A stretch of 55,277 bases of DNA from assembly GCF_023715605.1 (NCBI RefSeq), contig NZ_JAMBOL010000018.1, forward strand, positions 1 through 55,277, written 5' to 3'. The stretch comes from Halalkalibacter oceani (GTDB lineage Bacteria; Bacillota; Bacilli; Bacillales; Bacillaceae_D). Numbering within the stretch: the stretch's first letter is position 1; each line of letters opens with the position of its first letter. The notes beneath the pieces are model-generated. The model did no database searches, was not told the DNA's origin, and worked only from the letters and a program-made list of their open reading frames with translations. The position numbers were made by a program, and so were the translations under genes. This document shows positions 15,799 to 46,024 of the stretch, piece after piece.

Positions 15799-15819
15799 GC
15801 AAATAACCTCCCTTTCAAG

Positions 15820-15955
15820 AAGCTGCTGAAAAAGTAAGGTTTTCATTTTTTAGCAGCTTTTTCGTAATGAGCGGAGCCGTTGCCTGGTTTTGAAAGCCTT
15901 GCTACGAGTGGTTTTCTCGAAGCAAGACGCGCAACGCGCGGAGCCATTGCTCTTC
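15820..15955. repeat. Mosaic palindromic intergenic repeat, copy A
   Basis: A hairpin (gctgctgaaaaag with an imperfect tttttagcagc) is followed by an AATGAGCGGAGCCG module. A second hairpin (cttgctacgag / ctcgaagcaag around tggtttt) follows, then GGAGCCATTGC. The same modules recur at 29.0, 31.8 and 50.4 kb. Copy A is the most diverged. The rest of 15956-16332 holds no gene I can support. Confidence 0.6.
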
Positions 15956-29014: not shown

Positions 29015-29097
29015 CAATGAGCGGAACCGCCACGATCTTTTAAAGCCCGTTGTGAGTGGGTTTCTCACAACGGGCTTGTGGCGTGTGAAGCCATTGC
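29015..29097. repeat. Mosaic palindromic intergenic repeat, copy B
   Basis: AATGAGCGGAACCGCCACGAT is split here as AATGAGCGGAACCG and CCACGAT. A perfect 14-bp hairpin aagcccgttgtgag/ctcacaacgggctt (29043-29056, 29064-29077) follows, then TGTGGCG..GAAGCCATTGCC. It is nearly identical, in inverse orientation, to 50388-50466. The stretch 29098-29346 shows no other gene. Confidence 0.75.
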
Positions 29098-29346: not shown

Positions 29347-30951
29347 TTGGAACAGAAACGCGGCATGACACGAAGAGACTTTCTAAACCGGGTTGGAAAG
29401 GTTGGAGGAGCAGTAGCAGTATTTGGAGCGATGGAGTCACTTGGGCTTTTATCAACATCAGCTTCAGCAAGTTCCTTTCAGCCTCCCACTCAAGGAGATT
29501 TAGCCCTTACTGGTAGAAATGGGAAGAGGATTCTCATCTTAGGAGCGGGGATTGCTGGAATGACGGCAGCCTATGAGCTTGGGAAAGCCGGCTATGACTG
29601 CCATATCCTTGAAGCCCGTCAGCGTACCGGTGGACGAAATTGGACAGTGCGCCGGGGCACCCGGGAGCAGGAAATCAACGGTGAGATGCAAACAGCGACT
29701 TATGATCCGGGGCACTATTTTAATGCCGGACCGGCGCGGATTCCTCAGCACCATGTGACGATGGATTACTGTAAGGAGCTTGGTGTTCCGTTGGAAGTAT
29801 TCTCGAATGGAAACGAGCATGCTTTCTATTATCAGGAGAATGCCGGCGCACTGTCTAATCAACGTTACAGAAAATATGAAGTGAAGGCGGACGGGCGCGG
29901 GTATGTGGCGGAGTTGCTCGCCAAAGCGGTCAATCAATCGGCGCTTGACGATCCTTTGACAAGTGAGGATGCAGAGCGGTTGCTAGAATACTTAAGGAGA
30001 GAAGGCGGACTATCATCCGATTATACTTATCAAGGCTCAAGTGCTCGCGGTTACGCAGAGCTTCCGGGAGCCGGGGATCAGCCGGGCACGTTAGGACAGC
30101 TGCACTCATTTACTGATTTACTTCAATCAGGCATGATGAACAATTTCAGTTCAGAATACAGCTTTAACCAGCAGATGATGATGTTCCAGCCAATTGGCGG
30201 GATGGATCAAATTCCGAAAGCGCTTGAGAGGAAGCTTCCGGGTAAGATCACATTCGGAGCGATCGTCCGCGAAATCCGCCAGACAAATGGCGGAGTGCGA
30301 ATCGTCTACACCACCGGATCTGGTGGAACCCAGTCGATGTCAGGAGATTATTGTATCTGTACGATTCCACTTCCGGTTTTGAAAAAAATCCCGGCTGACT
30401 TCAGCGCGGAAATGAAAAATGCGATGAACCAGATCGGCTATGCGACGACCGGAAAAATCGGCCTGCAATTTAAGAGCCGCTTTTGGGAAAACGAAGATCG
30501 CATTTATGGCGGAATCACGACGACGAATATGGATATTAACCAAATCTGGTATCCGTCTTCGGACTTCCTCGCGCAAAAAGGAATTTTGGTCGGCTATTAT
30601 AACTTCGGAAATAATGCGGTGGCGCTGGGCAATATGTCATTAGCCGAGCGCCAGGCACACGCGCTGGCACAAGGGACGAAGATTCATCCTCAGTACGCCG
30701 CGGAGTTTGAAACCGGATTCTCTCTAGCGTGGCATAAGATCCGGTACAATGAAGGCGGATGGGCTTCCTATTCCGAGTCGGATTTGCAGAACTATTACCC
30801 AATCTTGAACAGACCTCAAGGACGCGTTTATTTGGCAGGGGAGCACTTAAGCTATTATACCGGCTGGATGGCAGGTGCATTTGAATCGGCACGCAAAGTG
30901 GTCACTGAAATTCACGAACAAGTCATGAAAGAAGAACCGGTATCGGCTTAA
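29347..30951 (+). CDS. Tat-exported flavin amine / L-amino-acid oxidase
   Basis: The protein is 534 residues. The twin-arginine signal is GMTRRDFLNRVGKVGGAVAV, with cleavage near SASA-SS. The FAD site is RILILGAGIAGMTAAYELGK, then DCHILEARQRTGGRN. YFNAGPARIPQHH matches the place where L-amino-acid oxidases hold the substrate carboxylate-binding Arg. The C-terminal flavin motif is VYLAGEHLSYYTGWMAGAFE. The likely reaction is oxidative deamination of an amine or L-amino acid to an imine, with H2O2, outside the membrane. It is followed by an exported RidA-family protein, tatA and tatC in the same direction, so the cell appears to carry a dedicated Tat route for it. TTG start behind AGGAGGG; the next in-frame ATG (29365) would still keep the RR motif. 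Confidence 0.85.
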   Translation: MEQKRGMTRRDFLNRVGKVGGAVAVFGAMESLGLLSTSASASSFQPPTQGDLALTGRNGKRILILGAGIAGMTAAYELGKAGYDCHILEARQRTGGRNWTVRRGTREQEINGEMQTATYDPGHYFNAGPARIPQHHVTMDYCKELGVPLEVFSNGNEHAFYYQENAGALSNQRYRKYEVKADGRGYVAELLAKAVNQSALDDPLTSEDAERLLEYLRREGGLSSDYTYQGSSARGYAELPGAGDQPGTLGQLHSFTDLLQSGMMNNFSSEYSFNQQMMMFQPIGGMDQIPKALERKLPGKITFGAIVREIRQTNGGVRIVYTTGSGGTQSMSGDYCICTIPLPVLKKIPADFSAEMKNAMNQIGYATTGKIGLQFKSRFWENEDRIYGGITTTNMDINQIWYPSSDFLAQKGILVGYYNFGNNAVALGNMSLAERQAHALAQGTKIHPQYAAEFETGFSLAWHKIRYNEGGWASYSESDLQNYYPILNRPQGRVYLAGEHLSYYTGWMAGAFESARKVVTEIHEQVMKEEPVSA

Positions 30952-30982
30952 TTTGAAAATGACTGGAGGATGATGAGTAAAG

Positions 30983-31510
30983 ATGAAAAAAACGTTGAAA
31001 ATGACACTGGCCTCCTGTTTTATCGGGACAAGCTTTCTAATAGGTTCCTTAGTAGGGGCGAATAGTGATAAACAGGCGATTGAAGAGCTTTCCGAGGTGA
31101 CTTTTTTTGGAAACCCTTCTTCTTCGATCTCAAGCTCTGTCGCGATTCCAAGCGATTACAATGTTCTTTCCTTTAGCGGCACAGTCCCAAGCGCGATTAA
31201 CAGCGAAGGGGCAACCTTGTATGAGCGGTACGGCGACACGAAAACACAGGCCATGTCGATTTTAGAAAAGTTTAAAGTCGACCTGGAGGAAAAAGGACTG
31301 TCACTGGCCGATGTTACCTATTTACGAGTCTATATTACACCTGATCCGATGAAAGGAAACGAGTTTGACTATCAGGGATGGTTTGACGCTTATGCCGAGT
31401 ATTTTGATACGGAGAATACACCGAAAGTAGCCCGGTCAACGGTAGGGGTGAGCAGCCTGGTGAATTCAGACTGGCTGATTGAAATAGAAGCGGATGTTGC
31501 GTTTAAATAA
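30983..31510 (+). CDS. Exported RidA (YjgF)-family protein
   Basis: The protein is 175 residues. A signal peptide (KMTLASCFIGTSFLIGSLVG) precedes a RidA-like fold: YNVLSFSGTVPSAINSEG, TKTQAMSILEKFKVDLEEKG, SLADVTYLRVYITPDP and the C-terminal PKVARSTVGVSSL...EIEADV. The Arg in VARST aligns with the RidA Arg that binds the imine's carboxylate. RidA enzymes hydrolyse reactive enamines and imines to keto acid and ammonia, normally in the cytosol. An exported version 31 nt after an exported amino-acid oxidase would act on that enzyme's product. Export is probably by Sec, since no RR pair is present. ACTGGAGGATG gives a ribosome site before ATG 30983. Confidence 0.8.
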   Translation: MKKTLKMTLASCFIGTSFLIGSLVGANSDKQAIEELSEVTFFGNPSSSISSSVAIPSDYNVLSFSGTVPSAINSEGATLYERYGDTKTQAMSILEKFKVDLEEKGLSLADVTYLRVYITPDPMKGNEFDYQGWFDAYAEYFDTENTPKVARSTVGVSSLVNSDWLIEIEADVAFK

Positions 31511-31540
31511 GGCACGGAAAAAAGAGAGGAGTGAAAGGAT

Positions 31541-31744
31541 ATGTTCCTTCAAAATATTGGAATACCAGGTTTGATTCTGCTTTTAATCATTGCCCTCGTG
31601 ATTTTTGGTCCGTCAAAATTGCCGGAAATCGGCCGGGCTTTCGGGCGAACGTTAACAGAGTTTAAGAGCGCGACGAGAGAGCTCGTGTCCGGTGAACCTG
31701 AAAAGGAACCGACTGAGCTGCAAAGCGCCGAAAAAAAGCAGTAA
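31541..31744 (+). CDS. tatA: Twin-arginine translocase TatA
   Basis: The protein is 67 residues. One N-terminal TM helix ([20 protein letters not shown]), the [14 protein letters not shown] hinge and an amphipathic helix ([13 protein letters not shown]) with a charged tail are exactly the TatA plan. TatA oligomers form the Tat passage once TatC has bound an RR signal peptide. It sits between its probable substrate genes and tatC. In monoderms TatA usually does TatB's job too. GAGAGGAG lies before ATG. Confidence 0.93.
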
Positions 31745-31796
31745 TGGTTTGAGAAAAAAGAGGCGGTGAGGATGAGATAAAACGAGCTTTGCCCTG

Positions 31797-31925
31797 TTGG
31801 CGATAGCTTCATCCGTCAAAAGCCAGTTGTGAGAATGCGAAAGCTGCTGAAAAAGTGAAAATCCGTCCTTTTTCAGCAGCCTCCTCATTGCTTAGGGACT
31901 GGGCAAACGATAAACAACCTTTGGC
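31797..31925. repeat. Mosaic palindromic intergenic repeat, copy D
   Basis: GATAGCTTCATCCGTCAAAAGCC-AGTTGTGAG is a partial arm related to copy C. A perfect 13-bp hairpin gctgctgaaaaag/ctttttcagcagc (31843-31855, 31868-31880; shared with copy A) and CTCATTGCTTAGGGACTGGGC (inverse of copy B's GCCTCTAAGCAATGAG) follow. It lies between tatA and tatC and could reduce read-through or shape mRNA processing. Confidence 0.6.
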
Positions 31926-31974
31926 CGGTCTCTGCCTTATTTTTACATGGTGAACGGGGAAAGGGAGTGTGTGT

Positions 31975-32700
31975 ATGGAAGAGCTCAGGCTGGAGGAGCA
32001 TTTGGGAGAGCTGAGAAAACGTCTGATTATTATCCTTGTTTTTTTTGTTCTCTCTTTTGCCGGTGCCTTCGCTTTCGTTCCTAACGTGTATGATTGGATT
32101 GTCGAAACGGCTGGTCAGCAGCTGGCGATTCTCGGACCGAGTGACATTCTGTGGATTTACTTCACGCTTGCCGGCTCGTGCGCGTTGATTATCACGACGC
32201 CGCTGATTCTCTATCAGCTTTGGAAATTCGTGGAACCAGCGATTACAGCCGAAGAAAAGGGTATCGTCGGTGTTTACATTCCGGCTGTGTTTTTATTTTT
32301 TATCATCGGCATTTTATTTGGTTATTTTATTTTGTTCCCGAGCGTGTTAGCATTCTTGCAAACGCTGGCGGAGGATCATCTCGTGATGATGTACACAGCC
32401 GAAAGGTACTTCGGCTTTTTGTTCAATTTAACGATACCGATCGGGCTTCTGTTTGAAATTCCGATCCTGATCATTTTGTTGACACGACTCGGCCTGCTGA
32501 ACCCGGCGCGGCTGGCGAAGACACGCAAAATCGCCTACTTCGTGCTGACATTATTGGCGACGCTCGTCACCCCGCCTGATTTGATTTCCGCCTTGATCGT
32601 GCTCGCGCCTCTCGCTCTGCTCTATGAAATGAGCATTTCGATCTCGAAGGTTGTCTATAAACGACGGCTCGCCCGTCTTGAAGCGGTTAGTGAAACGTAG
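31975..32700 (+). CDS. tatC: Twin-arginine translocase TatC
   Basis: The protein is about 241 residues with six TM helices. The start is MEELRLEEHLGELRKRLIII, the TatC signature around the conserved E and the HL.ELRKR motif. The cytosolic loop FVEPAITAEEKGIVG and the late LARKTRKIAYFVLTLLATLVTPPD-like stretch (TRKIAYFVLTLLATLVTPPD) also match. TatC recognises the RR signal peptide. The gene follows tatA by 230 nt, which are occupied by a repeat. The start is ATG 31975, 7 nt after AAGGGAG; GTG 31969 lies too near. Together with tatA this resembles the substrate-linked phoD-tatAd-tatCd arrangement known in B. subtilis. Confidence 0.93.
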   Translation: MEELRLEEHLGELRKRLIIILVFFVLSFAGAFAFVPNVYDWIVETAGQQLAILGPSDILWIYFTLAGSCALIITTPLILYQLWKFVEPAITAEEKGIVGVYIPAVFLFFIIGILFGYFILFPSVLAFLQTLAEDHLVMMYTAERYFGFLFNLTIPIGLLFEIPILIILLTRLGLLNPARLAKTRKIAYFVLTLLATLVTPPDLISALIVLAPLALLYEMSISISKVVYKRRLARLEAVSET

Positions 32701-32713
32701 GCGGAAAGGCTTT

Positions 32714-32760
32714 AGGGGTTATCGCGAAAGGCTAAGCATCAGCCTTTTGCGATAACCCCT
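32714..32760. terminator. Bidirectional terminator
   Basis: A 20-bp stem (aggggttatcgcgaaaggct, one G-U pair) with a 7-nt loop sits between tatC and the convergent DUF4306 gene, and overlaps the last codons of the latter. Confidence 0.85.
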
Positions 32761-34705: not shown

Positions 34706-35040
34706 CGCTCTTTCCTTTTTCAGAAGCGCTTCTGCAAGATTCCGCGGTAGTCTTAGCGTACAAAAGAACAGACAAAGGGTCATCTTCTTAAATAGGGGAA
34801 ACCGCCTTCGTTTAAAGGAGGATAACGCCGTTTTGGATACGCTGTTTAATGGAATTCAACAGAGCGCCCTTGTGAAATTGAGCCAAACCACCATTTTTTT
34901 TAAGGAAAGCGATTGTCTGTAGCACGATTTTTTTTGACCAGTGAGAAAAAAGCTCTGTTAGAAAATCTGTCAAAAATATGTATTTAGTTTAGCGAAATAT
35001 TTTAAAATGGGTGGTGATTATTTCAAAAAGGAGGAAAAAA
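34706..35040. other. Upstream region of the sigma gene and the SLH-asparaginase gene
   Basis: About 335 nt between divergent genes. It is AT-rich near the asparaginase side (ATATTTTAAAATGGG). No open frame or clear palindrome is present, and I could not assign promoters with confidence. Confidence 0.35.
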
Positions 35041-36552
35041 ATGCAGCTTAAAGGCAAACATATGCTGATGATCATCTCGTTGCTCTTTTTTCTGGCGGTG
35101 ACCCCGCTGACCACATTAGCCAATGAGGGCTTTTCGGATGTGGAAGGAGCGCTGAAGGATGAAATCATCGCAGCGTACGAGTTACATTTCGTAAATGGAT
35201 TTCCAGATGGTACATATCGGCCTCAAGCTAAGGTAACGACGGGTCAATTTTCGATTATTCTTTCACGAGTGTTCCAAGAGAGTGGAATGAGCGTGGAGCT
35301 TGAAGAAGGAGATGCGACTCCGATTACAAGAGAGCAGGCTGCCCATTATATGAATCTTGGTTTACAGCTTGAACCAGCAAATGAAAGCTTCCGTGATGTC
35401 CCGGATGAAAGTGAATATGCCGGAGATATTGGCGCGATTGCCGACACGGGGCTGATCACCGGCTATTCGGCGGAGCGCTTCGGCTATGGCGACACGCTGA
35501 CCCGTGCTCAGGCGGCGGCTTTGGCGGTTCGACTGTATGAATATATCGCACCGGCTGAAGAGCTTGACTTCACTGCAGATAACGAATTGCCGAACGTCGC
35601 GATTCTGGCGACAGGAGGGACAATTGCCGGTTCCGCGCCTTCCAATACGGCTACGACCGGTTACCAGGCCGGCGCGATTGCGATTGAAACTTTGATTGAA
35701 GCGGTTCCTGAGATGGAGGAGATCGCCAACATTAGCGGCGAGCAAATCGTCAGTGTCGGCAGTCCGAACATTACGAATGACACTCTTCTTACATTGGGCA
35801 AACGGATCAACGAACTGCTGGCTACCGACGAAGTTGATGGAATCGTCGTCACTCATGGTACGGATACGCTTGAAGAAACAGCCTATTTCCTCAATCTCGT
35901 TGTCAAAAGTGAGAAGCCGGTTGTCGTCGTAGGAGCAATGAGACCGGCGACGGCGATTAGCGCCGATGGTCCGATGAATCTTTACAACGCTGTACTCGTA
36001 GCGGGAGATGAAGAAGCGAAAGGCCGAGGCGTCCTTGTAACCTTTAACGACCGGATCGGCGCGGCGAGGGAAGTAACGAAAACAAACACGACGGCGCTGG
36101 ATACGTTCCGCTCAACCGAGCAAGGCTATTTAGGAAGAATTGTTGGCGGCAAACCGTATTTTTATAACGAAACAACACGTAAGCATACGACGGAAACCGT
36201 CTTTGATATTAGCAATCTATCAACATTGCCGCAGGTTGATATTATTTACGGCTACCAGAATGACAATCGCTATATGTATGATGCCGCTGTTGAAAATGGG
36301 GCAAAAGGAATTGTTGTCGCCGGATCAGGTAATGGTTCGATGTCAAGCATTAGCGCGGAAGGGGCCCAAGCCGCAACAGAAAAAGGTGTTCATGTCGTGC
36401 GCTCGACCCGCGTCGGCAATGGTACGGTTTCGGAAAGAAGCGCCTTAACGGCTGATTCTCTTAACCCGCAAAAGGCCCGTATTCTATTAATGCTTGCTCT
36501 GACAGAAACCGATGACCCGGCTGAGATTCAGAGGTTCTTTAACGAATATTAA
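35041..36552 (+). CDS. Surface-anchored type II L-asparaginase with SLH module
   Basis: The protein is about 503 residues. A signal peptide (to about 28, TTLA-NE) is followed by an SLH module (about 30-180): [38 protein letters not shown] and [20 protein letters not shown]. The asparaginase domain (about 190-503) has [10 protein letters not shown] with the nucleophilic Thr, [36 protein letters not shown], and late [12 protein letters not shown] and RVGNGTVSE. The reaction is L-Asn (possibly Gln) to Asp plus ammonia, on the wall. Fusion of SLH repeats to an asparaginase is unusual. AAAAAGGAGG fixes ATG 35041. The next gene carries the same SLH module on a different amidohydrolase. Confidence 0.9.
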
Positions 36553-36726: not shown

Positions 36727-38691
36727 ATGCGAAACGAGATGAAACAACTGTTTATGGTCATTTCATTTTTATCGGTGCTGTTCGTGAGTCCGCTCATGAC
36801 ATTGGCGGAAACGGATGTCTTTTCCGACATACAGGGGCAAATGGGGCAGGATATTATGGAGGCCTATGACCTTCAATTGGTCAACGGGTATCCTGATGGA
36901 ACATACCGGCCAAACGAGGAAGTCACGACTGCTCAGTTTTCAACGATTTTATCGCGCGTCTTTGCAGAGCATGAAGTGGACGTGTCGCTTGGCATCGGCG
37001 ATGCCACACCTCTCACACGGGAAGAAGCGGCTTATTATATGAATCTGGGACTTGGATTGGAAAAGCAGGCTGAAGGTTTCAGCGACGTGCCTAATTCCAG
37101 TCCGTATGCCGGAGATATTGGCGCGGTTCAGCAGACAGGAATCATTACCGGCTATAGCGAAAGCCATTTTGGCTATGGCGATACATTGACCCGGGCCCAG
37201 GCAGCTGTATTTGCTCTTCGTGTCTATCACTATCTCGATCCATTTGAGCTTGAGGAAACGACGATTGCCGATATTCAGGCGGCGATGGATCGTGGGAAGC
37301 TGACAGCCGAAGAGCTTGTCGGAATGTATCTTGAGCGGATTGACTTATATGATCAGCAAGGGCCGGCGATTAATTCGATTATTACGATTAACCCGGAGGC
37401 CGAAGCGATTGCGCGGGATTTGGACCAGGAACGCGCTGTAAGCGGACCGCGCAGCCCGCTGCACGGGATTCCGGTCGTCGTGAAGGATAATTTTGATACA
37501 GTAGATATGGCGACAACAGCCGGCTGTCTATGTTTAAAAGATTCCTTCCCGCTTGATGATGCCGAGCAAATTAAGCTATTGAAAGACGCTGGGGCGATCA
37601 TCATTGCGAAAGCGAATCTGCATGAATTTGCATTCGGTATTACAACGGTCAGCTCACTCGGCGGGCAGACGCTTAATCCGTATAATCTCGATTATTTGCC
37701 CGGCGGATCAAGTGGGGGAACAGGGGCGGCGCTGGCGGCGAACTTTGCTGTTGCCGGACTTGGGACGGACACCGGCGGGTCAATCCGGATTCCGGCCGCC
37801 TTTAACAGCCTGGTCGGGATCCGCCCTACTATCGGGCTAACGAGCCGCGACGGCATCATTCCGTTAGCCTTGACACAGGATGTCGGCGGGCCTCTCGCGC
37901 GGACGGTCGCGGATGCGGCGCATATGCTTGATGCGACCGCGGGCTATGATGAGAAAGATGTGGTGACCGCGTGGAGCAAAGGACAAATCCCGGCTAGCTA
38001 TACTGATTATCTGGATGTTGATGGCCTGCAAGGAGCGCGAATTGGCGTCGCTCGCGAGCTGTTTAGTGATGCGGCTGAAAGTGAGGAGGTTAATCGCCTT
38101 GTCGAGCAGGCTGTCCGGGACATGGAGCGTCTCGGTGCGGAAATGATTGACATTACCTTGCCGAATCTTGAGGAAATCAGTCAGTATCCAAGCTTGAGCA
38201 GCTGGGAATTCAAATTCCAATTAAATGATTATCTAGCTGAATTGGGACCGGACGCCGCCCATCAATCGTTAACCGATATTATCGAATCCGGTGACATTGA
38301 AGAATCAATGAGAGATTCCTTGATTGCAAGAAATGAGCGCGAATCATTGGATGAAGAAGAGTATAAGGATATTGTTCTTTTCCGCACAAGGCTCACGCAG
38401 GAATCGATTATGAAAGTGATGGCCGATCATGAGTTGGATGCGATTGTTTATCCGACAACGACACATCCGGCGGCAATGGTCGGTCAAAGCCAGACTTCTG
38501 GCGCAAATAACCGTCTCTCGGCCTTCAGCGGCTTTCCGGCGATTTCTCTTCCGGCCGGATATACGTCTGTTGGAACACCGGTTGGCGTTGAATTGCTGGC
38601 TGGCCGTTTTGAAGAACCGACATTACTTAAACTCGGTTACTCATACGAGCAAGGAACGCGGCATCGAAAAGCGCCTGCTCTACTTCAATAA
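36727..38691 (+). CDS. Surface-anchored amidase-signature enzyme with SLH module
   Basis: The protein is 654 residues. A signal peptide (to about 28, TLA-ET) precedes an SLH module (about 30-180) nearly parallel to that of the upstream gene: LVNGYPDGTYRPNEEVTTAQ, LTREEAAYYMNLGLGLE and [20 protein letters not shown]. The amidase-signature domain (about 185-650) has the catalytic Lys in GIPVVVKDNFD, the cis-Ser and Ser nucleophile in PGGSSGGTGAALAANFAVAG and LGTDTGGSIRIPAA. These enzymes hydrolyse amides such as glutamine-like, peptide or xenobiotic amides; the substrate is not readable here. AGGAGGG precedes ATG. It probably works at the surface with the SLH-asparaginase. Confidence 0.9.
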   Translation: MRNEMKQLFMVISFLSVLFVSPLMTLAETDVFSDIQGQMGQDIMEAYDLQLVNGYPDGTYRPNEEVTTAQFSTILSRVFAEHEVDVSLGIGDATPLTREEAAYYMNLGLGLEKQAEGFSDVPNSSPYAGDIGAVQQTGIITGYSESHFGYGDTLTRAQAAVFALRVYHYLDPFELEETTIADIQAAMDRGKLTAEELVGMYLERIDLYDQQGPAINSIITINPEAEAIARDLDQERAVSGPRSPLHGIPVVVKDNFDTVDMATTAGCLCLKDSFPLDDAEQIKLLKDAGAIIIAKANLHEFAFGITTVSSLGGQTLNPYNLDYLPGGSSGGTGAALAANFAVAGLGTDTGGSIRIPAAFNSLVGIRPTIGLTSRDGIIPLALTQDVGGPLARTVADAAHMLDATAGYDEKDVVTAWSKGQIPASYTDYLDVDGLQGARIGVARELFSDAAESEEVNRLVEQAVRDMERLGAEMIDITLPNLEEISQYPSLSSWEFKFQLNDYLAELGPDAAHQSLTDIIESGDIEESMRDSLIARNERESLDEEEYKDIVLFRTRLTQESIMKVMADHELDAIVYPTTTHPAAMVGQSQTSGANNRLSAFSGFPAISLPAGYTSVGTPVGVELLAGRFEEPTLLKLGYSYEQGTRHRKAPALLQ

Positions 38692-40328: not shown

Positions 40329-43300
40329 TTGGTTAGAAAAATTGGTTTAGCTGCTTTTATTTTGCTGTTTGTCATGCAAACACTGACGCTAAATATGGGA
40401 ATGGTACCTCGCGCAAGTGCTTCGCAACAATCAATTTTTACAAATGTAGTGCTGACGGATCAAAATGGCAAACGCATTGATGAAAGTACGGCAGTGGATA
40501 AAAACTCGTTAGTCCATGTACATATTGGTTGGGAACTCAATCAACATGTCACTAAAGAAACATTTTCGCTGACATTGCCTAAGGAACTAACAATCTCTCA
40601 GGAACAAAGTGGTGTCTTAAACGGAGAAGGCGGGATGAACGCCGGGACGTATCGCGCCACTACGAATGGAACCATTACAGCGACGGTCGACAGCCAGCAA
40701 CAAGGAAAAGGCATATTTATGCTTAAGGCTGGCTTCAATCAGGGGATGGTCCAGGACCGTGATCACATGCAACTTAGCATTTCTGCCGGTGGAAAGGCAT
40801 ATACGAGCACGATTGCTTTTACTGACAAGATAAAAGCCGCAGAAGCTGAAATGCCTGGAGAACAGGAAGAGCAAGAGCTTCCTGCTTCTGAGGAAGAGAC
40901 AGCAGAAGTGGAGGAGGACTTCAGTTCAGAGGACGGAGTAGAAGAAGGAAACGAACAGGGACAGGACTCCAATTCAGCAGATGAAATGGAGGAAGGGAAC
41001 GAGCCGGATGCTGAAGACGGAACCAAGGAAGAACATCCAGATCCAGAAGCCGGTCATGATGATGAGGGAATGGATTCAACTGAGCCGGATGCAGACAACC
41101 CAAGCGATGTAGATCAGGAGACAGAAGCTGGGGAAGGCCAGGAAGATAGTGCGGAGGACGTTCTGGAGGAAGAAACGGATCAGGAGCCAGTTGAGGAAGA
41201 GGCTGAGGCCATCGAGGACGAAGAGGGGCTGTTAGATGAGTTTCTTGAACAAAATGATCCCACTATCATTTCAGAAGCTATTATTACGAGCGTCCTGTTG
41301 AAGGATGAAGATGGCAACGAGATTCATTACGAAGAACATCCAGGCAATCAGCCCTCGTTAGGTGACATTGTCGAGCTCCATTTTAATTGGAAATTAGAAA
41401 ACGGTCACGGCTACAAAGCAGGTTCTACCTTTACTTTTTATTTGCCTGACGTTTTTGAAGTCTATAATGAGGTGGACGGAGAACTCGTCTTCGGCTCGAC
41501 TAATGTGGGAGCATTTGAGCTTGGGATGGATCGAAAAGTAACGATGACGTTCAATGACAAAATTGAACAGCTTTCTAACATTATCGGTACGCTTACGTTC
41601 TGGACAGGGTTTCGGGAGGATCTTGGCGGAGACATTATTCAGGAAATCATCTTCGAGGTCGAAGATCGGGTCATTGCCGTCATTCCCATTCATTTTCAAG
41701 GGCGACCAGGCAGCACGCTGGAAAAGCGCGGAACTCCGGACAAAGGCTATAATGCAAAAGAAATTACATGGACGATTGATGTAAACAAAGGACTTGATTC
41801 GATCGAAGGAGCCGTTCTGGATGATCCGATTGAGGACGGTCAGGCCTTTCAGCCAGGCTCAATGGAAGTGTATGAGCTGAATATGCAGCTGGATGGCAGT
41901 GCGGTACAGGGCGATCAAGTAGCCGTTGGAGATGGCACGTTCCCGCTCGTCTTTGGCGACATTTCAACCGCCTATCGGGTTACCTTTAAAACGGATGTCA
42001 TTGATAAGAACGCCACCTCTTATAAAAATAAAGCGATTTTAAAAGGCGACAATGTCTCTGATCGGGAAGCTTCGGCGGAAGTAGAGACCCGTCGCGGGAA
42101 GCCGTTAGAAAAGAGAGCTGCTCATTATGATGCTCCTAATCAGGTCATTACGTGGGAAATCAAATTTAACTACAATGAAAAATCAATTCCTAAAGACGCG
42201 GCGAAATTAACTGATCTGTTTTCAGCTAGTCATGAGCTTGTTGACGGCTCCTTTAACGTGTATCAAGTAGAGATTAATGAAAACGGAGAGGAAGCTGGAC
42301 AGACTGATTTTGCCAATTATTCCGTTAACCCAGGCAAAAACGGGTTTGAGCTGCAATTTAATGAGGACATTTCCCATGCCTATAAAATTATTTATCAAAC
42401 GAGATCAAAAGACCGTGTCTATCAAGGCGACACAGTCAAAAATAAAGTAGAATTCGGCGAACAAGAATCCTCTGAAGTGCAGCCTATCAGGCAGCAGATT
42501 CTTGAAAAGAGCAACAGAGATGCTGACTATAAAGAGAAAACAACGAATTGGACGATTGCATTTAATAAAGACTCTCACGAAATGAATAACGTTGTGCTGA
42601 CAGATGAATTTACGAATAAAGGGTTAAGCTTTATTGAAGACAGCTTGGTTATTACGGGCCCTGATGGACCTCTGGAAAAAGAACAGGATTATGAGCTTGA
42701 ACGGCTTCCTCTTGATGCCGGCTTTACAATTACATTTTTAAGCCCAATCAGTAAGCCGCATACGATAACATACACAACAGGCTTTGAGTATGAGACACGT
42801 CAAGATAAAACGAAAAACTTCATCAATGAAGCCCTTTTAACGTGGACGGATGTTGATGGGAAGGACAGGGAACTCAAAGCGGAGGCCGTGTTCAACCCGG
42901 ATCGGTATACGCAAAACAATGGCTTTAAGTATGGCTCCTACAATGCGATTACAAAGGAAATTACTTGGAATGTCGGCTTGAATTATAACTTGAGCGAACT
43001 GGAGAATGTTGTCGTAACAGATTACATTCAAGGCAATCAGCAACTTCTTGAAGACTCGATAACAGTCTATCATATGGAGTTGACAGGCGGTGCTGACGGG
43101 GTGAGGCTCGGAGAACCATTGCAACCGAATACGGATTATTCACTTAGAATGATAGAGGGTGATGATGGGGAGCCGGGATTTGAAATCTCTTTCCCGGGCA
43201 CAATCACAACACCATATTGGATCACGTACAAAACAAGTTTAGCGGAGCAGCTTATTAAAGACCGCTATCACAATAGCGCGACAGTTCAAAGTGAAAACGA

Positions 43301-45392
43301 TGACACACTTGAGCTTCATGCTTCGCTTTCCATTAACCATGGCGGCGAATTCACAGGGAAAACAGGAACGCAACATGGTAAGGTCATCGATTGGCAAGTG
43401 AAGATCAATTATAGCCAGTCTCATATTTCCAATGCTGTATTGACCGACCGGCCAAGCTCGAATCAAATTTTAATGCGCGATTCATTTAAGCTTTATGCGA
43501 CGAATGTCGATGAAGAAGGCAATCTATCAAAGGGAGAGCAATTGAATTTTGGCGAGGATTATTTGCTTGAATTTTTAGAGGATGAGAACGTGGAGTACTT
43601 TAAGCTTCACTTCAAGCGCGATCTTGATCGTGCCTATCTTCTGGAATATCAATCTTATATTAGTGCTAAGCATGAAGATAGCGTGACGAATACAGCAGTT
43701 TTATCGGGCGAGCATATTACAATAGAAGAAACAGAATCAAATGAAACGATTATTGTCAGATTTACGGATGGCTCCGGAACGGGGAGCGGTGTAACAGGAA
43801 GCCTCGAAGTGACGAAGGTCGCTGCCGAAACTGATAAACCGTTAGCGGGCGCGCGTTTTACACTCTATGACAGTTCGGGAACCATTGCCATCAGAACGTT
43901 GGAAACCGGAGCTGACGGGAAGGTGAAATTTGAGAATTTGTTGTATGACGAATATTTATTGAAGGAAGCCAAGGCCCCGGAAGGGTATGTCGTCGGCATT
44001 ACGGACACATTGCTTGTGGCAATTGATGGGGACAATGCAGTCAAAGTTGAAAACCGAAAGCTGAAGCGGGCGGTTCAGCTTGAGAAGCTTGATCAAGATA
44101 CACGGGAAACATTAGAGGGAGCTGTGTTTGAGTTGCAGCAAAAACAAGGAAATGAATTTGTTACGCTTGAGCAACTGACGACGGATGAAGACGGTGTGTT
44201 ATTACGTCACGACCTGGAACCGGGCGAGTATCAATTCGTTGAAGCCATTCCTCCTTTCGGATATGAGCTTGATCAGACGCCAATTCCATTTACGATCACT
44301 CACAACCAAGTGGAATTGATCAAGTTGCAAATGGAAAATACGATTGTATTGGGAGCGGTTGAGCTTGTAAAAGCTGACAAGGACGAACCGACACTAGTTT
44401 TGGAAGGAGTCGAATTTGAGCTTCAAGATAGTCAAGGAACGACGCTACAGACCGGCTTAACGACGGATCAGGACGGCAGGCTGATTGTTGGCGACTTACG
44501 GCCGGGAACGTATCAATTTGTGGAAACGAAAGCAGCCGAACATTACATGCTTCCTGATAAACCGTTTGGATTTACGATTGTCAAAGGGCAAGAAGAGCGG
44601 CTGATTGTTAGCATCGAGAATCAATTGATACCGGGCGCTGTGGAACTGACTAAGGTTGATCGCCGAAATCATGGAAATGTGCTTGCCGGGGCGGAATTTG
44701 AGTTGCAGAACCGCCACGGCGTAACGTTGCAAGCGGGGTTAACGACAGACGAAAATGGAAAGCTCGTTGTCGATGAACTGCGACCGGGTTCCTATCAATT
44801 TATCGAAACGAAGGCACCGGCCGGCTATCGGCTTGACCAGACACCCCATCCATTCACAATTGAAGTAGACCAAAAGGAGAGCGTTAAACTTCTTGTTGAA
44901 AATCAGCGCCGCAGCTCTGGTGGAGGAGGCGGTGGACCAAGACCGCCTGAGGATCCGGACGAGGTGGAAGACGAAGAACCAGAAGAGCCGGGTGAGCATG
45001 ATGGTGAAGAACCGGGTGATCACGACGAGGAAGAACCAAGTGGCAATGATGGTGAGGAGCCTGGTGACCATGGAGACGGTGATGATCCAGGTCATCCGGA
45101 AGAGCCGGGTGACAATGGCGGAGATGATCGACCAGAGCCGGGTCCTGGATCCGGAGATAACCCGGGGGATGGCGGGAAAGAAGATGATGAGGAACATCCG
45201 AATGGCGGCGGAGCTGGAGAGGGGAAGACGCCAAATGACCGCGAGCCAGCGTTAGAAAAAGAAACAAATTCAGGACAGCAGCTTCCGCAAACAGGGGAAG
45301 AAAAACTTCTTTATATGCTAATCCTTGGAGTCATTTCCCTCATGCTCGGGGGCGGAATTCTTCTTCATCGCCGATTCAAAACAATTGAGTAA
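40329..45392 (+). CDS. Giant LPXTG surface adhesin
   Basis: The protein is 1687 residues, about 170 kDa or more. A signal peptide (to about 31) is followed by a first MSCRAMM-like beta domain (about 33-170), an acidic D/E-rich linker (about 172-305) and a second beta domain (about 306-460). Five collagen-adhesin-like repeats of about 130-145 residues start near 461, 593, 724, 860 and 1007, with recurring ITW.I..N.. and A..I.Y.T motifs. Four SpaA/Cna_B repeats start near 1158, 1248, 1343 and 1437. Each begins with a VTK/LEK-type Lys and ends in EN, so intramolecular isopeptide bonds are likely. A Gly/Pro/Asp/Glu spacer leads to LPQTGEE at 1652, a TM helix and an RRFK tail. The sortase gene follows at once. 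TTG start, with AAGGAGGA 8 nt upstream. Confidence 0.9.
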   Translation: MVRKIGLAAFILLFVMQTLTLNMGMVPRASASQQSIFTNVVLTDQNGKRIDESTAVDKNSLVHVHIGWELNQHVTKETFSLTLPKELTISQEQSGVLNGEGGMNAGTYRATTNGTITATVDSQQQGKGIFMLKAGFNQGMVQDRDHMQLSISAGGKAYTSTIAFTDKIKAAEAEMPGEQEEQELPASEEETAEVEEDFSSEDGVEEGNEQGQDSNSADEMEEGNEPDAEDGTKEEHPDPEAGHDDEGMDSTEPDADNPSDVDQETEAGEGQEDSAEDVLEEETDQEPVEEEAEAIEDEEGLLDEFLEQNDPTIISEAIITSVLLKDEDGNEIHYEEHPGNQPSLGDIVELHFNWKLENGHGYKAGSTFTFYLPDVFEVYNEVDGELVFGSTNVGAFELGMDRKVTMTFNDKIEQLSNIIGTLTFWTGFREDLGGDIIQEIIFEVEDRVIAVIPIHFQGRPGSTLEKRGTPDKGYNAKEITWTIDVNKGLDSIEGAVLDDPIEDGQAFQPGSMEVYELNMQLDGSAVQGDQVAVGDGTFPLVFGDISTAYRVTFKTDVIDKNATSYKNKAILKGDNVSDREASAEVETRRGKPLEKRAAHYDAPNQVITWEIKFNYNEKSIPKDAAKLTDLFSASHELVDGSFNVYQVEINENGEEAGQTDFANYSVNPGKNGFELQFNEDISHAYKIIYQTRSKDRVYQGDTVKNKVEFGEQESSEVQPIRQQILEKSNRDADYKEKTTNWTIAFNKDSHEMNNVVLTDEFTNKGLSFIEDSLVITGPDGPLEKEQDYELERLPLDAGFTITFLSPISKPHTITYTTGFEYETRQDKTKNFINEALLTWTDVDGKDRELKAEAVFNPDRYTQNNGFKYGSYNAITKEITWNVGLNYNLSELENVVVTDYIQGNQQLLEDSITVYHMELTGGADGVRLGEPLQPNTDYSLRMIEGDDGEPGFEISFPGTITTPYWITYKTSLAEQLIKDRYHNSATVQSENDDTLELHASLSINHGGEFTGKTGTQHGKVIDWQVKINYSQSHISNAVLTDRPSSNQILMRDSFKLYATNVDEEGNLSKGEQLNFGEDYLLEFLEDENVEYFKLHFKRDLDRAYLLEYQSYISAKHEDSVTNTAVLSGEHITIEETESNETIIVRFTDGSGTGSGVTGSLEVTKVAAETDKPLAGARFTLYDSSGTIAIRTLETGADGKVKFENLLYDEYLLKEAKAPEGYVVGITDTLLVAIDGDNAVKVENRKLKRAVQLEKLDQDTRETLEGAVFELQQKQGNEFVTLEQLTTDEDGVLLRHDLEPGEYQFVEAIPPFGYELDQTPIPFTITHNQVELIKLQMENTIVLGAVELVKADKDEPTLVLEGVEFELQDSQGTTLQTGLTTDQDGRLIVGDLRPGTYQFVETKAAEHYMLPDKPFGFTIVKGQEERLIVSIENQLIPGAVELTKVDRRNHGNVLAGAEFELQNRHGVTLQAGLTTDENGKLVVDELRPGSYQFIETKAPAGYRLDQTPHPFTIEVDQKESVKLLVENQRRSSGGGGGGPRPPEDPDEVEDEEPEEPGEHDGEEPGDHDEEEPSGNDGEEPGDHGDGDDPGHPEEPGDNGGDDRPEPGPGSGDNPGDGGKEDDEEHPNGGGAGEGKTPNDREPALEKETNSGQQLPQTGEEKLLYMLILGVISLMLGGGILLHRRFKTIE

Positions 45393-45400
45393 GGGATCAA

Positions 45401-46024
45401 GTGATTGATATGAGGAACAGTCAAAGCAAATTAATTATCGGTATCTGGCTGCTGCTGGTTGGCTTCATCCTGATTCTGATTCCCTTTCTATCTGAATGGC
45501 AAAGTAATCGAGACGCGAGGGCTTTGGAAGAAGCCCTCTCTCTCGTTGCTGATTCGGAGCAGAGCAATATCGAAGTGAATGTGATGGGGAAGACGATGAC
45601 CGAGAACGAGCTCGAACAGGTGATGAGGCTTGAAATCCCGGTCATTGATCTTAATCAGCTTGTCTTACCTGAGACAACAGAGCAAAACCTGAAGGTAGCG
45701 CTCACGCAAATAAAAAAGGAGCAAGTACCGGGGGAAGGGAATTTTACGATTGCAGGGCATAGAGGATATCGGGCTGAGCGTCATTTTAGCCGCTTACCGG
45801 AGATAGACAAAGGCGATACGATTTTATTGCATGCGAATGATAAAACATATAAGTACCAAGTATTCTCTACAGAAATAATCGAACCAACTTATCTGGAAAT
45901 ATTGGAAGACCATCCATTCCGGCGGGAAATTACGCTGATCACATGCACGCGCGGAGGGCAGGAGCGAATCGCGGTAAGAGGGACATTAATGAATGAGACA
46001 GCCGCACTTGCTGTAGGAGAGTAA
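45401..46024 (+). CDS. Class D sortase
   Basis: The protein is 207 residues. An N-terminal signal-anchor (LIIGIWLLLVGFILILIPFL) precedes the sortase barrel: GNFTIAGHRGYRAERHFSRL (catalytic His), ITLITCTRGGQERIAVRGTL (catalytic Cys and Arg). It starts 8 nt after the adhesin stop, so it should be co-translated and dedicated to that LPQTG substrate, joining it to peptidoglycan or a like acceptor. The short size and GHR motif fit class D. GTG 45401 is taken as start, with AAGGGA just upstream; ATG 45410, three codons later, is an alternative. Confidence 0.88.
   Translation: MIDMRNSQSKLIIGIWLLLVGFILILIPFLSEWQSNRDARALEEALSLVADSEQSNIEVNVMGKTMTENELEQVMRLEIPVIDLNQLVLPETTEQNLKVALTQIKKEQVPGEGNFTIAGHRGYRAERHFSRLPEIDKGDTILLHANDKTYKYQVFSTEIIEPTYLEILEDHPFRREITLITCTRGGQERIAVRGTLMNETAALAVGE

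Follow-up and report, generated by a model that had tools for sequence, protein, structure and literature searches.

In a 55,277-nucleotide (nt) stretch of Halalkalibacter oceani DNA (contig NZ_JAMBOL010000018.1; hereafter, the window), we analyzed four adjacent genes that encode a probable L-amino-acid oxidase (LAAO) with a twin-arginine translocation (Tat) signal, a predicted exported protein of the Rid family, and the translocase components TatA and TatC. We consider it probable (about 0.72) that these genes constitute a horizontally moving four-gene secretion cassette, in which an exported LAAO, an exported imine-clearing Rid and a TatA-TatC exporter serve nitrogen gain. The genes and the predicted export signals are the following:

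29347-30951, + strand: probable L-amino-acid oxidase gene of the flavin adenine dinucleotide (FAD) amine-oxidase family, 534 amino acids (PF01593, PDB relative, conserved residues)
29347-29469, + strand: predicted Tat signal of the oxidase, TRRDFL ... ASA (read from the sequence)
30983-31510, + strand: Rid3-like gene, predicted exported imine deaminase, 175 amino acids (PF01042, PDB relatives, predicted fold, residues)
30983-31060, + strand: Sec-like signal peptide of the Rid protein, with MKK, a hydrophobic core and a possible cleavage site after VGA (read from the sequence)
31541-31744, + strand: tatA (PF02416, 7e-21; PRK14861 above cut-off)
31975-32700, + strand: tatC, TatCd-like (PF00902, 2.4e-54; TIGR00945 above cut-off; tree)

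The four genes are co-directional and uninterrupted by other genes, with gaps of 31 nt (oxidase to rid), 30 nt (rid to tatA) and 230 nt (tatA to tatC). The oxidase gene starts with TTG directly behind AGGAGGG, giving the protein N terminus MEQKRGMTRRDFLNRVGKVGGAVAVFGAMESLGLLSTSASA, and the start of tatC was taken as the ATG at 31975 (the listed open reading frame [ORF] begins at 31969). A first-pass annotation of this DNA had listed an oxidase with RRDFL and GPARIP motifs, a Rid gene, tatA and tatC in one direction, all of which were recovered from the ORFs and Pfam matches.

The oxidase matched the Pfam family Amino_oxidase (PF01593) at 1.9e-55. Its best PDB relative, and thus its closest solved one, was the LAAO of Rhodococcus opacus (2jae; 3.8e-116), with a snake-type LAAO far behind (1.6e-40). 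The arginine of the GPARIP motif (residues 128 to 133), R131, is aligned with position 83 of the 2jae chain, presumably the substrate-carboxylate Arg84. Of 43 aligned rows, 42 share R131, Y418 and W507 and one has a gap there; the glycines of the FAD-binding GxGxxG motif (G66, G68 and G71) were identical in 41 of 43, with two rows gapped. The family assignment, the 2jae match and the conserved R131/Y418/W507 bear out the LAAO identity proposed earlier and indicate that the protein is probably an LAAO of the amine-oxidase family, unrelated to GMC. Its N terminus fits the criteria for a Tat signal (an S/T-R-R-x-F-L motif, a hydrophobic core and AxA) as read from the sequence, and TRR was invariant across 10 aligned oxidase rows. 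The RR-x-hydrophobic motif was present in 46 of 50 oxidase loci; among the four misses, the motif lay on a separate frame in L066, L094 was cut by the contig start, and L109 carried TRRAWL; the fourth was L110.

The product of the second gene matched the Pfam family Ribonuc_L-PSP (PF01042) at 3.3e-10 over residues 60 to 172, with ARST at residues 150 to 153. Its two best PDB relatives by sequence were PFL_1385 (9bkc, 8.7e-19) and PSPTO_3006 (9bka, 2.2e-13), and both also came first by predicted fold: a structure model based on 27 aligned sequences (mean pLDDT [predicted local distance difference test score], 87.6; residues 1 to 30 at 54 to 56) best matched 9bka (template modeling [TM] score by target length, 0.90) and 9bkc (0.83 to 0.87). 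Across 43 rows (42 loci plus the window), R151 and E167 were retained in all 43 and E169 and I49 in 42. According to the accessible text of PMC4433059, the Rid3 signature consists of the retained Arg and Glu with Ile replacing Tyr. A tree fork supported at 95/96 united PFL_1385 and PSPTO_3006 with the 43 Rid rows, against an outgroup of only five cytosolic Rids. On account of the Arg/Glu/Ile signature and of these two best relatives by sequence and fold, the cassette protein is, as judged from its sequence, Rid3-like and retains the imine-hydrolysing arginine, the residue that had already been noticed as conserved in the first-pass annotation.

Among 13 aligned orthologues of this Rid, MKK was invariant, the hydrophobic core was variable, and small residues occupied the possible cleavage site. 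A signal-like N-terminal segment, judged by eye, was present in 42 of 42 Rid orthologue loci, and the five other Rids of the same genome have no comparable segment. The oxidase and the Rid thus appear to bear different export signals, twin-arginine and Sec-like, in agreement with the earlier reading of the two N termini. Six of the 42 Rid loci have an RR within the segment (the window Rid has none); therefore, the Tat route is possible for those six. A cytosolic Rid with a mis-called start was rejected for the window gene, as the hydrophobic N terminus recurs in all 42 orthologues. A lipoprotein reading of the window Rid (LASC at residues 9 to 12) was set aside, since almost no hydrophobic core precedes the motif and the cysteine is missing from 11 of 13 aligned rows. 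The PFL_1385 chain in 9bkc reads LLFAASSSWAAG from residue 12 (residues 12 to 23), resembling the end of a signal peptide. As its chain appears to begin with such a signal, PFL_1385, which was crystallised and assayed as a cytosolic Rid3, may in fact be exported; neither "signal" nor "periplasm" is used in the main text of PMC5619798. Its supposed failure to complement ridA was dropped as export evidence, since the source gives complementation by four of six plasmids and leaves the failures unnamed.

The four-gene order recurred in many Bacillaceae and Paenibacillaceae, so the genome search that the first-pass annotation had suggested showed the arrangement not to be peculiar to this strain. 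We used a family sample of 41 genomes, an order sample of 397, a phylum sample of 398, and an oxidase scan of genome contigs that yielded 50 loci. In the family sample, a strong Rid match was found in 6 genomes and a weak one (28 to 31%) in 3, and a close oxidase (at least 71% identity) was found in the same 6. Matches at 1e-10 were obtained for 10 of 397 genomes of the order sample and for 1 of 398 of the phylum sample, the latter being the window's own. The full order on one contig, with differing flanks, was seen in the window and in seven other genomes (G019, G024, G015, G351, G181, G126 and G309). G410 also has the cassette (its named record, L088, shows tatA). In G014 the order is preserved with an interrupted oxidase and tatC, and a contig break splits off the oxidase in G012.

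The 50 oxidase loci comprised 28 from Bacillota and 22 others, the latter from cyanobacteria, Actinomycetota, single Bacteroidota and Chloroflexota metagenome-assembled genomes (MAGs), an acidimicrobial MAG and two alphaproteobacterial MAGs. Rid lay directly 3′ of the oxidase in 44 of 48 testable loci, 42 by hidden Markov model and two (L100 and L108) by the start of Rid, recognized by eye at the contig tail; L086 and L104, which end right behind the oxidase, were excluded. Adjacent pairs spanned Bacillota, Cyanobacteriota, Actinomycetota and one Bacteroidota MAG. The presence of both genes in the same 6 of 41 genomes, together with this adjacency, argues for pairing beyond chance. Over 43 pairs, the tree distances of oxidase and Rid correlated at 0.90, a value that none of 999 permutations reached, with a contribution from host relatedness. 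The host names of the oxidase loci often suggest alkaline or saline habitats.

Horizontal movement of the unit is supported by the differing flanks and by a complete copy on the Metabacillus dongyingensis plasmid pBY2G20 (362 kb; L176). Some 2 kb away from this plasmid copy is a gene annotated as a subclass B1 metallo-beta-lactamase, and spore-germination genes are also close by. Within one genus, the cassette was found decaying: G387 retains an intact Rid, and 16 kb of its sequence contain nothing else of the cassette; G328 has an intact Rid beside remnants as well as a second, broken copy, and the Rid of G368 is broken. Among the loci of this genus (L054, L055, L056 and L058), Rid has outlived the oxidase and tat genes in G387 and in one copy of G328.

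Behind the pair, tatA followed in all 26 readable Bacillota loci. For tatC the count was 24 of 25: L084 lacks it, and two of the 24, L066 and L072, have it interrupted. No match to tatA or tatC was obtained in the 22 non-Bacillota oxidase loci, several of which end soon after Rid. Because the pair recurs in other phyla without tat genes in the stretches examined, the oxidase and the exported Rid probably constitute the core, with tatAC as a Bacillota addition. The layout is that of a minimal TatAd-TatCd system, with tatA followed by tatC, no tatB, and the presumed Tat substrate next but one. We built a TatC tree from 23 cassette rows and 48 others, which were drawn from the delivered loci and not from all hits. 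A fork supported at 100/100 separated all cassette TatC proteins plus 18 others from 30 sequences that include the second tatC of the window genome. This is the only other tatC of that genome, and the neighbour of the second tat pair is presumably rex, as for tatAy-tatCy in B. subtilis. A single co-inherited clade of cassette tatC was rejected by the approximately unbiased (AU) test (p 0.008). For the 23 cassettes with full-length TatC, distances correlated at 0.81 (oxidase-Rid), 0.68 (oxidase-TatC) and 0.78 (Rid-TatC); 0 of 999 permutations were as high in each case, and host relatedness contributes to all three. Checked neighbours of other tatC genes comprised one PhoD (PF09423, beside L147), four PhoX and one metallophosphoesterase; the Bacillaceae tatC loci L147 to L149, L157, L150, L137, L135 and L156 adjoin genes of these three kinds. 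These PhoD- and PhoX-linked relatives and the rejection of a single clade suggest that substrate-tatA-tatC units are a recurrent design in Bacillaceae-type bacteria and that the tat part has been exchanged.

Several known systems resemble the cassette in part. In B. subtilis, the gene order phoD-tatAd-tatCd places a Tat-substrate gene before its own tatA-tatC, as do the PhoX-tatA-tatC loci; in contrast to these units, the cassette inserts a gene with a Sec-type signal between substrate and tat genes, and its presumed substrate is an oxidase. The plant-associated bacterium Gluconacetobacter diazotrophicus has a lao-cccA-ridA cluster, for which the accessible text of PMC5053998 gives a signal for the oxidase alone. 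There, as in the cassette, an LAAO with a Tat signal is encoded beside a RidA gene; however, a cytochrome c gene separates the two, whereas the cassette has 31 nt and no cytochrome c at this place. Among six plasmid stretches examined, those of Sulfitobacter, Paracoccus and Microvirga carry oxidase-cytochrome c-RidA. All three of these RidA proteins have a signal-like N terminus with AQ-type sites, and RR is present in the Sulfitobacter and Microvirga oxidases and absent at the annotated Paracoccus start. The Komagataeibacter and Azospirillum stretches showed no oxidase adjoining RidA. In contrast to the cassette with its tatA-tatC, the plasmid relatives had no tat genes annotated in the stretches examined. 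In the green alga Chlamydomonas, LAO1 and LAO2/RIDA are periplasmic according to the available part of PMC10805672. This system likewise combines an extracellular LAAO, a RidA in the same compartment and nitrogen from amino acids, but it is eukaryotic, lacks tat genes, and is likened to the cassette by description. PFL_1385 and PSPTO_3006, the nearest solved kin by sequence and fold, share the Arg, Glu and Ile signature, and the PFL_1385 chain, like the cassette Rid, seems to begin with a signal. They are about 30 to 36% identical to the cassette Rid, and in the PSPTO_3006 chain the N terminus is too short for a full signal before the match.

From these data we infer export, both enzyme activities, the action of Rid on the product of the oxidase, the service of tatAC to the oxidase, and the nitrogen role, as follows. 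The LAAO would fold with FAD in the cytoplasm and leave through a TatA-TatC pore, the Tat route being likely because FAD is carried. Outside the cell it would act on free L-amino acids, with imino acids and H2O2 as products. The Rid would exit unfolded via Sec, trimerise outside, and turn the imino acids, by hydrolysis, into 2-oxo acids and ammonium before the cell surface is attacked by them. Such an activity is suggested by analogy with its kin, since in the portion of PMC5619798 available, less semicarbazone formed in the presence of PFL_1385 or PSPTO_3006 when an LAAO made imines from Leu, Gln, Phe, Met and His. What the cell would usually gain is probably nitrogen, taken from amino acids outside it as algal LAO1 does; H2O2 would be a by-product or a weapon. 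The algal case (accessible parts of PMC10805672 and PMC7412212) and a nearby surface-layer (S-layer)-anchored asparaginase and amidase are consistent with the nitrogen role.

Several observations weigh against the proposed cassette function. No promoter-like site on the + strand ahead of the oxidase was found in our scan, no adjacent Rid accompanied the oxidase in L095, L097, L109 and L110 (4 of 48 testable loci), and cassette tatC genes failed to form a single clade. Moreover, an intact Rid persists in G387 without the oxidase and in one G328 copy with a remnant of it, and may therefore do something else. Finally, imino acids hydrolyse spontaneously, so that the need for an extracellular Rid is not obvious.

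The claim of the first-pass annotation that the translocase is dedicated was weakened. The regular presence of tatA (26/26) and tatC (24/25) in readable Bacillota loci speaks for it, and the multiple tatC lineages, the PhoD/PhoX kin and the pairs without tat genes speak against it. The alternative that tatAC is a general TatAd-TatCd pair, carried along by chance and used by several substrates, is therefore a serious competitor, which we place somewhat short of even odds: cassette TatC falls inside a clade with PhoD- and PhoX-linked TatC, the own genome has just one other tatC, and no tat genes follow outside Bacillota in the stretches examined, but the same regular presence and the Rid-TatC distance correlation (0.78) argue for a closer association. 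The role of Rid could also differ from clearance. Adjacency in 44 of 48 loci and matched trees suit a complex as well as a pathway, and a Chlamydomonas LAAO-RidA complex (M-alpha and M-beta subunits), its RidA subunit called non-catalytic, is cited in the accessible text of PMC5053998. However, retention of the arginine (43/43) and of Glu169 (42/43) goes beyond the needs of a scaffold, and G387 has an intact Rid without an adjoining oxidase. It thus seems doubtful that Rid acts chiefly as a structural or regulatory subunit of an oxidase complex and not as a free imine hydrolase.

LAAO chemistry yields H2O2, which could be aimed at competitors, with Rid merely limiting side damage. Bactericidal H2O2 from LAO1 is discussed in the available part of PMC7412212; yet the cassette has no toxin/immunity gene, no catalase was seen beside it in the four-gene unit, and the nearby asparaginase and amidase, though found only in the window strain and near kin, point to nitrogen. 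We regard such a weapon as unlikely. Very unlikely, in our view, is an uncleaved membrane anchor at the Rid N terminus, or retention of the protein inside the cell, by which it would guard the membrane or cytoplasm. The low-confidence helix at residues 5 to 34 of the model would suit an anchor and a signal alike, but the MKK, the variable core and the small residues at the possible cleavage site in 13 orthologues, as well as the AQ-type sites in the three proteobacterial RidA proteins, favor a signal, and anchoring would in any case leave the protein facing outward.

An exported RidA beside its oxidase, which had been thought new, has precedents: periplasmic LAO1 and LAO2/RIDA, lao-cccA-ridA, and clusters of RidA and Rid3 genes with FAD amine oxidases (PMC4433059, accessible text) are already published. 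Among open-licence PubMed Central (PMC) papers, we found none uniting amino-acid oxidase, RidA and TatC and none clearly on exported bacterial RidA. As far as searched, three things are new: how widely the pair occurs, the variant that carries tat genes, and the exported Rid3 branch, to which PFL_1385 apparently belongs. We consider it fairly likely, with less assurance than for the cassette itself, that an exported Rid3 branch, PFL_1385 included, clears the imines of Tat-exported LAAOs in Bacillota, Cyanobacteriota, Actinomycetota, Pseudomonadota and Bacteroidota, and that the Bacillota form is mobile and self-exporting via TatA-TatC. The accessible text of PMC4433059 states that for Rid1 to Rid3 no in vivo substrates are known; a signal-bearing Rid3 branch with a Tat-exported oxidase would supply a concrete substrate source and compartment for Rid3. 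The cassette would also show damage pre-emption beyond the cytoplasm in bacteria, and this compact natural unit of enzyme, clean-up enzyme and exporter might be of use in secreted LAAO production.

Three repeats lie in or around the cassette:

29043-29077, no strand: perfect inverted repeat 5′ of the oxidase, at the boundary after an S-layer gene (14-nt arms, 100%)
31840-31889, no strand: palindromic dispersed repeat inside the tatA-tatC gap (inverted repeat, 22-nt arms, 86%)
32714-32760, no strand: inverted repeat right behind tatC, between convergent genes (20-nt arms, 95%)

Neither boundary repeat (29043-29077 or 32714-32760) scored as an intrinsic terminator under the T-run rule. Intrinsic terminators at both cassette ends were therefore rejected, and terminator-like sites were not enriched (4, versus 5.3 in shuffles). 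The gap palindrome had at least 45 matches in its own genome, including its own place, with 40 of 165 candidates scored; its arm reads GCTGCTGAAAAAG, and a second arm pair lies within the window at 15819-15860. Downstream, the window encodes an adjacent asparaginase (35011-36552) and amidase (36727-38691), with S-layer homology domains and a signal-like N terminus in both; the two enzymes would release ammonia and are predicted to be extracellular. The asparaginase is also present in G019, an H. oceani genome. Farther on (40329-46024), a large collagen-binding SpaA-repeat surface protein with an LPXTG anchor is encoded, followed by a sortase gene.

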